DNA from: an uncultured Alphaproteobacteria bacterium
Lineage (GTDB): Bacteria > Pseudomonadota > Alphaproteobacteria > Geminicoccales > Geminicoccaceae
Reading direction: 5' to 3'
Length of the DNA stretch: 42,242 nucleotides
Assembly (NCBI GenBank): GCA_937926445.1
Contig: CALBAK010000023.1
Coordinates: forward strand, 1 to 42,242
Positions 21,681 to 23,534 of this stretch are shown here, piece by piece. A program made the position numbers and the translations under genes. Each line of letters opens with the position of its first letter. Position 1 is the stretch's first letter. Under the pieces are notes generated by a model that saw nothing but the letters and a program-made list of their open reading frames with translations, did no database searches and was not told the DNA's origin.

Positions 21681-22016
21681 ATGCGGCGACACCACGACAT
21701 GGGCGGCCTCCCGGCCGGGCCGGTCGAGCGAACCGAGCACGACCATGCGCCCTGGGAGAAGAAGGTCGATGCCATTCTGCGGCTCCTGGTCGCCAAGAAG
21801 GTGATGACTCTCGACGAGCTGCGCCGCGGGATCGAAGAGCTGGGTCCCGGCGCCTACGACGAGCTCTCCTATTTCGAGCGCTGGATCCGCTCGATCACGA
21901 ACATCCTCCTCGAGAAGGGGGTGTTAGGCGTGCACGAGCTCGGCCGAGCAATCGAGGCGGCCAAGGCCCGACGGGCGGCGGCCGAAGCCTGCCCGAAGAC
22001 GGTGCCGACCGCATGA
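21681..22016 (+). CDS. Nitrile hydratase beta, N-terminal half, as a separate subunit (thiocyanate hydrolase ScnB-like)
   Basis: A 111-residue protein equal to the helical N-terminal half of nitrile hydratase beta subunits. It carries the HDMGG start motif (residues 5-9), HAPWEKKVDAILRLL, and YFERWIRSITNILLEKGVL, in which the Arg after Glu corresponds to the beta Arg that contacts the oxidised metal-site cysteines. The ATG at 21681 has a GGAGGCGAGG site; upstream in-frame codons lack family similarity. The stop overlaps the next gene as ATGA. A separate N-terminal piece followed by a separate C-terminal piece is the arrangement of thiocyanate hydrolase scnB-scnA-scnC, and also of the three-subunit toyocamycin nitrile hydratase. 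Confidence 0.85.
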   Translation: MRRHHDMGGLPAGPVERTEHDHAPWEKKVDAILRLLVAKKVMTLDELRRGIEELGPGAYDELSYFERWIRSITNILLEKGVLGVHELGRAIEAAKARRAAAEACPKTVPTA

Positions 22017-22309
22017 GCGGGCCCTTCGCTCCCGGCCGCCGAGTGCGCGTCAAGGCGCTCTACCCGCCCGGGCACACCCGGACGCCCTGGTACACGCGCG
22101 GTCGCGAAGGCGTGATCTTGGACCTCGTCGACGTCGAGCCCGACCCCGAAGAGCGGGCCTACGGCCGACCCGGCCTGCCGGCCGTTCCGGTCTGGCGGGT
22201 CGTGTTCGCCCAGCACGAGCTCTGGCCCGACTATGCCGGCCCGGCCGGCGACCGGGTGGTGGTCGGCATCTTCGAGCCCTGGCTCGAGCCCGTGGAGGAG
22301 CGATCGTGA
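22013..22309 (+). CDS. Nitrile hydratase beta, C-terminal SH3-like half, as a separate subunit (ScnA-like)
   Basis: A 98-residue protein matching the C-terminal beta-barrel of nitrile hydratase beta. It has an early GRRVRVKALYPPGHTRTPWY stretch and then YTRGREGVI, which contains the second conserved active-site Arg. VVFAQHELWPDY near residue 72 and a closing FEPWLEPV also match the family. The ATG overlaps the previous stop, and the end overlaps the next start (GTGA). With the preceding gene it would make one complete beta-equivalent. An unbroken beta gene would normally encode about 210-230 residues, close to the sum of the two pieces here. Confidence 0.87.
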   Translation: MSGPFAPGRRVRVKALYPPGHTRTPWYTRGREGVILDLVDVEPDPEERAYGRPGLPAVPVWRVVFAQHELWPDYAGPAGDRVVVGIFEPWLEPVEERS

Positions 22310-22992
22310 GCCACGACCATCACGAGCACGATCACGACCACGACCATGAGCACGATCACGGGCACGGGCATCCGCCGGGGGAGCGGCACCCTTTCCAGCC
22401 CGACCTCGAGGACGGCCCCTACACCTGGCACATGGCACTCGCGGACGCCGTCGAGGCGCTCCTGCTCGAAAAGGGGATCTTCCGCCCCGAGGAGATGCGG
22501 CGCACGCTCGAGGACATCGATTCGAAGACGCCCGCGAACGGCGCTCGCCTCGTGGCGCGGGCCTGGGTCGACCCGGCCTTCAAGGCGCGCCTCTTGGCCG
22601 ACGTCAACGCGGCGGCGGCCGAGCTCGGGATCGACGCCGGGCCGATCCCGATCCGCGCCGTCGAATGCCGCCCGGGCGAGCATCACGTCATCGTCTGCAC
22701 GCTCTGCTCCTGCTACCCGCGCCTTCTGCTCGGGGCCGCACCCGACTGGTACAAGGCCCGCGCCTATCGCTCGCGAGTCGTGCGCGAGCCCAGGGCGGTG
22801 CTCGCCGAGCTCGGCCTCGAGCTTTCGGAGGAGGTGGCGGTCGTGGTCCACGACAGCACCGCCGAGCTCCGCTTCATGGTGTTGCCCGAGCGGCCGGCCG
22901 GTACCGAGGGCTGGGACGAGGCCCGGCTCGCGGCCCTCGTGACGCGCGACTGCCTGATCGGCGTGGCACGGCCGGAGGTACCGCGGGCGTGA
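22306..22992 (+). CDS. Co-type nitrile hydratase alpha / thiocyanate hydrolase gamma-like catalytic subunit with His-rich N terminus
   Basis: A 228-residue metal-binding subunit. The claw motif CTLCSC (Cys131, Cys134, Cys136) is the cobalt-type form, in which two Cys are normally oxidised to sulfinic and sulfenic acid around non-corrin Co(III). The residue after CYP is Arg139, where I remember Trp in two-subunit Co-type nitrile hydratases. Downstream WYKARAYRSRVVREPRAVL, VVHDSTAELRFMVLPERP and LVTRDCLIGV are family hallmarks. Residues 3-28 contain 12 His among Asp/Glu, a likely metal store or delivery segment. The reaction would be hydration of a nitrile to an amide, or of thiocyanate to carbonyl sulfide and ammonia; sequence alone does not decide. 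The GTG start is coupled to the previous gene. Confidence 0.9.
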   Translation: MSHDHHEHDHDHDHEHDHGHGHPPGERHPFQPDLEDGPYTWHMALADAVEALLLEKGIFRPEEMRRTLEDIDSKTPANGARLVARAWVDPAFKARLLADVNAAAAELGIDAGPIPIRAVECRPGEHHVIVCTLCSCYPRLLLGAAPDWYKARAYRSRVVREPRAVLAELGLELSEEVAVVVHDSTAELRFMVLPERPAGTEGWDEARLAALVTRDCLIGVARPEVPRA

Positions 22993-23534
22993 GGCGGTTG
23001 TCCGGCATTCTGGCGCTTCTGCTGGCGACGGCGGCCGGCGCCCGCGCCGATCAGACCGATCCCCGCCTCGACTTCTTGTTCGCCCGACTCAAGGAGGCCG
23101 ATGCGATCGAGGCGCGGATCATCGAATCGCACATCTGGACGATGTGGAGCGCGATCGACGAGCCGGAAGCGCGCGATCTTTTGGAACGCGGCAGCGTGGC
23201 GATGGCCAATCGCGACCACAAAACGGCGATGGCCGCGTTCGACGCCCTGACTTCCCGTTTTCCGAACTTCGCCGAGGGCTGGAACAAGCGGGCGACGCTC
23301 TCTTGGATCCTCGGCGACGATCGGGCGGCTCTGTTCGACATCCGGCGCACACTCGCCCTCGAGCCGCGCCATTTCGGCGCCCTCTCGGGCCTGGGCCTGG
23401 TCTTGCTGCGGTTGGACCAACGGCAGCAGGCCCTCGCCGCCTTCGAAGCGGCGCTCGCGATCCATCCCCACCTGCCGGCCGCCCGCCACCATGCCGAGCG
23501 ATTGCGGCGAGCCGGCCTGCCGGACGACCTGTGA
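22989..23534 (+). CDS. Secreted tetratricopeptide-repeat protein
   Basis: A 181-residue protein with an N-terminal signal peptide (about residues 1-20, cleavage after an Ala-Arg-Ala motif) and helical TPR units. The repeats cover about residues 60-175, with ALEPRHFGALSGLGLVLLRL and AFEAALAIHPHLPAARHHAE as the clearest. The GTG start overlaps the stop of the hydratase alpha gene (GTGA), so it is translated with the enzyme. Nitrile hydratase operons usually carry a downstream activator or metallochaperone, and none is seen here. Whether this TPR protein has such a role is unknown. Its signal peptide would put it outside the cytoplasm, whereas the hydratase has no signal. Confidence 0.85.
   Translation: MRRLSGILALLLATAAGARADQTDPRLDFLFARLKEADAIEARIIESHIWTMWSAIDEPEARDLLERGSVAMANRDHKTAMAAFDALTSRFPNFAEGWNKRATLSWILGDDRAALFDIRRTLALEPRHFGALSGLGLVLLRLDQRQQALAAFEAALAIHPHLPAARHHAERLRRAGLPDDL

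Follow-up and report, generated by a model that had tools for sequence, protein, structure and literature searches.

Three overlapping genes at positions 21681–22992 of the window (the whole 42,242 nt stretch of DNA analysed, from contig CALBAK010000023.1) are likely, on the sequence comparisons presented here, to specify a cobalt-type, three-subunit, activator-independent enzyme of the nitrile hydratase family. The sequence itself shows the subunits, the coupling of their genes, the Co-type claw, a trio conserved across the family, and a genome with no recognisable activator gene. The enzyme is an ordinary find, kept in most of the family genomes searched. It is probably a further member, in Geminicoccaceae, of the kind represented by ScNHase of Streptomyces canus, a grouping made by description, with a Streptomyces locus (L116) as its stand-in for sequence.

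Gene layout and subunit identity

The features of the region are listed below.

21681–22016, + strand: beta-N gene (N half of nitrile hydratase beta; ScnB/AnhD-like), 111 aa; PF21006 at 72.2 bits; TIGR03888 positions 1–101; PDB 3qxe_B and 2dd4_B
21819–21824, + strand: Leu47 and Arg48 of beta-N, at the ScnB Arg90 and Arg91 positions, respectively, from alignments (ScnB numbering from the PDB chain range)
22013–22309, + strand: beta-C gene (SH3-like C half; ScnA/AnhE-like), 98 aa, ATGA overlap with beta-N; PF02211 at 63.3 bits; TIGR03888 positions 138–226; PDB 4fm4_B and 2dd4_A
22079–22081, + strand: Arg23 of beta-C, opposite Arg141 of 1ahj_B in a hand-counted alignment
22306–22992, + strand: alpha (metal) subunit gene, 228 aa, GTG start, GTGA overlap with beta-C; PF02979 at 246.6 bits
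22306–22389, + strand: His-rich leader of alpha, 12 His in residues 1–28, counted by hand in the translation
22696–22713, + strand: metal claw CTLCSC, alpha residues 131–136, from translation and alignment
22720–22722, + strand: Arg139 of alpha, at the ScnC Arg136 position (Trp/Phe in two-subunit rows), from alignments
22989–23534, + strand: TPR protein gene, 181 aa, GTGA overlap with alpha; N-terminal hydrophobic stretch, judged by eye

The Pfam models NHase_beta_N (PF21006), NHase_beta_C (PF02211) and NHase_alpha (PF02979) each scored above cut-off in their own subunit. The alpha subunit fell below the cut-offs of both TIGR01323 (nitrile hydratase alpha; 234.6 bits against 249.85) and TIGR03887, the gamma model of thiocyanate hydrolase (SCNase; 201.4 bits against 291.45). 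For the TPR gene product, 13 TPR models matched at E up to 0.1, of which five (TPR_2, TPR_9, TPR_1, TPR_14 and TPR_6) exceeded their cut-offs. The genome itself, at 3.7 Mb and 98.62% complete, contains a single nitrile hydratase alpha.

A sequence-only reading of this DNA had described the split beta (111 + 98 aa), the order of N half, C half and metal subunit, and the ATGA and GTGA overlaps, and every frame and length was found to be as it had stated. The Co-type CTLCSC claw, the Arg139 after CYP and the 12 histidines in the first 28 alpha residues were likewise verified, and the resemblance it drew to the three-subunit layout of SCNase was borne out. It had also reported a coupled TPR gene with a signal peptide; the models above cut-off and the GTGA overlap agree with this, the signal peptide being judged by eye.

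In the mechanism that we propose, alpha would bind Co(III) through the CTLCSC claw, two of whose cysteines would be oxidised, and would hydrate a C–N triple bond to an amide, and beta-N and beta-C would together complete the pocket, contacting the claw via Arg48 and Arg23. The partner of the latter residue, Arg141 of 1ahj_B, is presumably a claw-contact residue. The amide product could pass to one of the unlinked amidases of the genome, where PF01425 gave eight match rows, two of them neighbouring pieces and none on the contig of the window.

Spread of the trio and the alpha tree

An alpha match was found in 26 of 30 same-family genomes (own excluded); loci were retrieved from 23 of these, and 22 show the N–C–alpha order, one of them (L030) with alpha in two frames. 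The exception, G018, carries a two-subunit enzyme and an activator, and three further family genomes with weaker alpha matches (G016, G024 and G028) stand outside the 23-genome count. Of 22 family loci (own included), 18 have a 4-base overlap at each of the two junctions, and this recurrence, together with that of the gene order, indicates that the layout is not due to chance. Among the best 80 matches listed, which form a biased sample, the same layout was present in Rhodobacteraceae, Betaproteobacteria, Rubrobacter, Rokubacteria and Chloroflexota, many of all these being MAGs, and on a cyanobacterial plasmid. The only ORFs common to all 20 family stretches and the window were those at the trio. 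No pathway-indicating neighbour was seen in the ten stretches listed, where no other gene occurred in more than 8 of 20 (some stretches being short, and family models applied to few neighbours); wider neighbourhoods vary by clade, as judged by eye. In the collection of literature searched, no paper named both nitrile hydratase and Geminicoccaceae.

Several other arrangements were observed among the loci. Three contain beta-N/alpha fusions in one ORF with a His-containing linker (L202:3813–5051, − strand; L203:5944–6999, + strand; L107:7923–8954, + strand); in these, beta-C is absent from the fetched flank and beta-C genes lie elsewhere in the same genomes. At two plasmid loci annotated scnC (L112:4985–6627 and L113:4978–6627) the ScnB-like and ScnA-like halves form one 283-residue ORF, followed by CbtB/CbtA at L113 and by a HupE/UreJ family protein at L112, with a TauE/SafE gene near both. 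The order is beta-C, alpha, beta-N on Azospirillum and Rhizobium plasmids (L114 and L117, respectively), CbtA/CbtB adjoining L117. A Planktothrix plasmid trio (L115:2272–3525) lies directly behind asnB, and behind a Streptomyces plasmid trio (L116:2194–5966) come genes for an aquaporin and for a Ni/Co transporter of the HoxN type. At 15 loci, mostly of Rhodobacteraceae, a conserved same-strand ORF lies behind alpha (L057:2753–3667 and similar ORFs in 14 other loci), resembling by eye an EamA-type permease. Finally, a Dehalococcoidia MAG (L062) and a Gammaproteobacteria MAG (L069) have closely alike alphas with Ile after CYP on a long branch, a likeness that could possibly reflect a binning mix-up or transfer.

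In a careful alpha tree of 60 rows, hand-picked for spread, ten Trp/Phe rows (eight loci and two PDB chains) were split at 100/100 from the other 50, which comprise 47 three-subunit and three SCNase rows; the window is on this larger side, as is the Streptomyces locus L116, which shares its layout. A quick tree of 107 rows, from which 18 of the 122 loci had been dropped (duplicates, a broken row and thinned close relatives), agreed on the main split with an SH-aLRT of 100. The SCNase rows grouped together at 100/100 on a branch of length 0.82. They fall within the three-subunit side, where a branch supported at 98/94 unites them with every other row of that side except the two of Rubrobacter. 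AU tests were run on three alternative groupings: the three-subunit rows all in a single clade that leaves out SCNase (p 0.223), SCNase joined with the window's family (p-AU 0.099) and that family joined with the two-subunit rows (p-AU 0.207). None of the three was rejected. Support for the main split is thus good, and the position of SCNase is left loose. Exceptions to the residue pattern are L108, a row of the three-subunit side with Trp after CYP, and L119 and L120, among the Trp/Phe rows, which have a split beta but also Trp and an activator, and represent an independent split. We also sought more SCNases for the tree: the single class-wide match at E 1e-70 (385 genomes) proved to be a three-subunit locus in which Val follows CYP and position 90 is Leu, and a phylum-wide search, performed without a positive control, gave 0 of 398 at E 1e-80.

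These data bear on the idea that a frameshift or stop recently cut the beta gene of an ordinary two-subunit nitrile hydratase to give the trio. Against PDB chains, its alpha scored 189–193 bits with Geobacillus-type two-subunit alphas, 171.5 with ScnC and 163–180 with other two-subunit alphas, an ordering consistent with such an origin, and L119 and L120 provide an independent case of a split beta beside an activator. In disagreement with a recent cut, however, the same split and order recur in nearly all of the family genomes with fetched loci, mostly with the same overlaps, and in several phyla, and the window is separated from the two-subunit rows at 100/100. Although the grouping of the family with those rows was not rejected, such a grouping alone does not place the family inside them; moreover, the beta is not intact, neither Trp nor Phe follows CYP, no activator gene is recognisable and the alpha is below the TIGR01323 cut-off. 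A recent cut is thus extremely improbable. A tree, of all three subunits, had been set as a test by the sequence-only reading, and the alpha tree does not place the window deep inside ordinary nitrile hydratases.

Pocket residues and maturation

The residue after CYP was compared across 120 of the 122 loci (leaving aside the duplicate L001 and the two-frame L030), a set that retains the duplicate pairs L032 and L006, L033 and L018, and L075 and L073. It was Arg in 102, Lys in four, Ile in two, Gly in one and Trp in one of the 110 rows on the three-subunit side (Arg or Lys in 106/110), Trp in seven and Phe in one of the eight Trp/Phe-type rows (Arg or Lys in 0/8), and Arg in both SCNase loci. 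The earlier observation of Arg in place of Trp after the claw is upheld. ScnC also carries Arg there (Arg136), and chain 3vyg_C has Trp; 3vyg was reportedly made to test substrate choice. A second residue, ScnB Arg90, we take to be involved in selectivity, with a role in substrate choice. This position is Arg in both annotated scnC (SCNase) loci, in one of the 106 three-subunit rows with an aligned beta-N (L079; four rows are without one) and in none of eight other rows, and it is Leu, as in the window, in 82 of the 106. A further 26 loci (L176–L201) had Arg in 22, Lys in two and Val in two after CYP, and position 90 was never Arg; of these, L177, L179, L184 and L189 come from genomes already in the 120-locus count, and L172, a repeat of L188, was also used whilst the repeats L173–L175 were left out. 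The neighbouring Arg48 position of beta-N (ScnB Arg91) is Arg in every aligned beta-N row of both alignments. With Arg139 present and Leu47 at position 90, the window enzyme has one of the two SCNase arginines. With Arg139, the pocket would be of greater polarity than that of two-subunit enzymes, which may favour polar or charged nitriles as substrates over simple hydrophobic ones.

Turning to maturation, the fixed stretch before the alpha domain held at least four His in 18 of 22 family loci, 61 of 85 other three-subunit loci, both SCNase loci and one of eight Trp/Phe-type loci, low counts being uncertain because the stretch may extend above the start codon or meet a contig end. The His-rich leader had been singled out as unusual, a view that does not stand, as such leaders are common in the three-subunit group and the N-terminus of ScnC is also His-rich. 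An activator-like extra beta-N ORF was found in one of 107 three-subunit loci (some of which end at contig ends), in both SCNase loci and in six of eight Trp/Phe-type loci, by a method that missed the annotated accessory gene of L122; L001, L030, L032, L033 and L075 are outside both the leader and the ORF counts. In both annotated scnC loci the activator-like ORF lies downstream. The sole three-subunit locus with such an ORF, L084 of a Devosia MAG, has two successive beta-N copies before beta-C (L084:2224–2886).

When the genome was searched with the activator model TIGR03889 at E up to 1, the sole match was beta-N itself at 12.9 bits, far below the cut-off of 46, whilst the two positive controls with activators, G018 and G046, exceeded it, the two scores being 68.3 and 53.2 bits; two other genomes of the genus gave weak matches only, below cut-off. 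PF21006 found one gene above cut-off in the genome, and two more rows below it at 12.7 and 12.5 bits. As the genome is slightly short of complete, the absence of an activator is not fully certain. A search limited to the cobalt transporter CbtA returned 0/6 for the genomes of the genus. Maturation could instead be built into the enzyme: beta-N may double as a metal and swapping chaperone, after AnhD, its equivalent in S. canus, for which this function is reported (PMC7329996), and the His leader would collect cobalt for loading.

The sequence-only reading had called the trio thiocyanate-hydrolase-like. As a true thiocyanate hydrolase, it would bind SCN− in a pocket of positive charge, where hydrolysis would release carbonyl sulfide and ammonia. 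The three-subunit layout, the Arg at the ScnC Arg136 position and the His-rich N-terminus of ScnC all accord with this, the two enzymes share a side of the alpha tree, and their joining was not rejected. On the other hand, the alpha scores some way under the TIGR03887 cut-off, Leu occupies the ScnB Arg90 position and SCNase forms a branch of its own in the best tree. In addition, the activator gene behind gamma is absent at the window, none of three searched genus genomes has an activator above cut-off, and CbtA is missing from all six. The SCNase label was accordingly set aside on the TIGR03887 cut-off, the ScnB-90 residue, the activator and the best tree, with the AU result for the joined grouping as a caveat; as an identity for the trio it is unlikely, and membership of SCNase was not upheld.

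The TPR gene and related systems

The TPR protein had been placed where an activator would normally sit. Its gene overlaps alpha by 4 bases and lies behind alpha in all six genomes of the genus, own included, as might be expected of an activator or dedicated partner of the enzyme. Its wider distribution argues otherwise. A TPR match at E 1e-5 was present in 22 of 40 genomes (own included), with near full-length homologs at 20 places, one per genome (own and 19 others), and outside the genus the homolog does not adjoin the trio, being ∼10 kb off in G011 and elsewhere on other contigs or farther away. G012 and G015 have the TPR gene in the absence of an alpha match. In eight of 14 fetched neighbourhoods the gene is beside a conserved transporter (Mla-type) operon, often upstream of it, which in one case (L163) comprised MlaE, ABC_tran, MlaD and ABC_trans_aux by Pfam. 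The order of ABC permease, binding protein and TPR in G015 (L158) is as in the window, and between the binding-protein and TPR genes lies a 24-residue beta-N remnant, 75% identical (L158:6813–6884), the rest of the trio being gone. G015 is only 70% complete, yet the remnant site is on one contig, and the simplest reading is that the enzyme was lost and the TPR gene retained. Furthermore, by eye, a signal-like N-terminus is found on the TPR protein and on none of the enzyme subunits. On homolog distribution, Mla-type neighbours and the G015 remnant we rejected the TPR protein as activator, and consider any dedicated partnership highly unlikely; the gene is probably a neighbour with a role of its own, unrelated to the enzyme.

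For the activator-independent trio, the nearest studied system by analogy is ScNHase (AnhD–AnhE–AnhA) of S. canus CGMCC 13662, described as a three-subunit cobalt nitrile hydratase with no activator gene found in the genome (PMC7329996; PMC13243292). Its separate beta halves, N–C–alpha order, cobalt type and lack of an activator gene, as given in PMC7329996, are like those of the window. Unlike the window it belongs to another phylum, and the likeness is one of published description. Toyocamycin nitrile hydratase of Streptomyces rimosus (ToyJ and partners), which works in antibiotic biosynthesis, also has three subunits and was compared by description only; no cluster of that sort was noticed for the window. 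Its alpha alone is reported to be enough for activity and modification (PMC7329996).

The SCNase of Thiobacillus thioparus (ScnABC, PDB 2dd4) shares with the window the three subunits, the CTLCSC Co claw, the Arg136-type residue and the His-rich gamma N-terminus, but it lies on its own long branch, has Arg90 in ScnB where the window has Leu47, and carries ∼40 extra N-terminal residues in ScnB (the beta-N match starts at ScnB residue 46). In contrast to the window, its cluster includes an activator gene (PMC7193024). Two-subunit Co nitrile hydratases (Pseudonocardia thermophila 4ob1, Geobacillus-type 3hht and Co-type 3qxe) have the same folds and claw and an Arg at the beta-N claw position, but differ in their intact beta, the Trp after CYP in the chains compared and their activator gene. 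A His-rich stretch is also found in the beta–alpha fusion nitrile hydratase of Monosiga brevicollis, where it spans 17 residues between the domains (PMC3323583), although that enzyme is a fused single chain and the window encodes three separate genes.

More tentatively, the three-subunit Arg-claw enzymes might be a large, old branch of nitrile hydratases in several phyla, in which a free beta-N and a His leader on alpha replace the activator; SCNase would then be a derived offshoot, the substrate of the main branch a polar or anionic nitrile, and the fusions at L202, L203 and L107 extreme cases of built-in metal loading. In the annotated records encountered, the names given to genes of this sort are 'nitrile hydratase', 'SH3-like domain-containing protein' or 'scnC', from which a role in nitrile or thiocyanate degradation may be inferred. 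Our alignments point to the absence of one of the two SCNase arginines from almost every three-subunit locus sampled. On the three-subunit side, maturation may generally proceed without an activator, in the way studied for S. canus.
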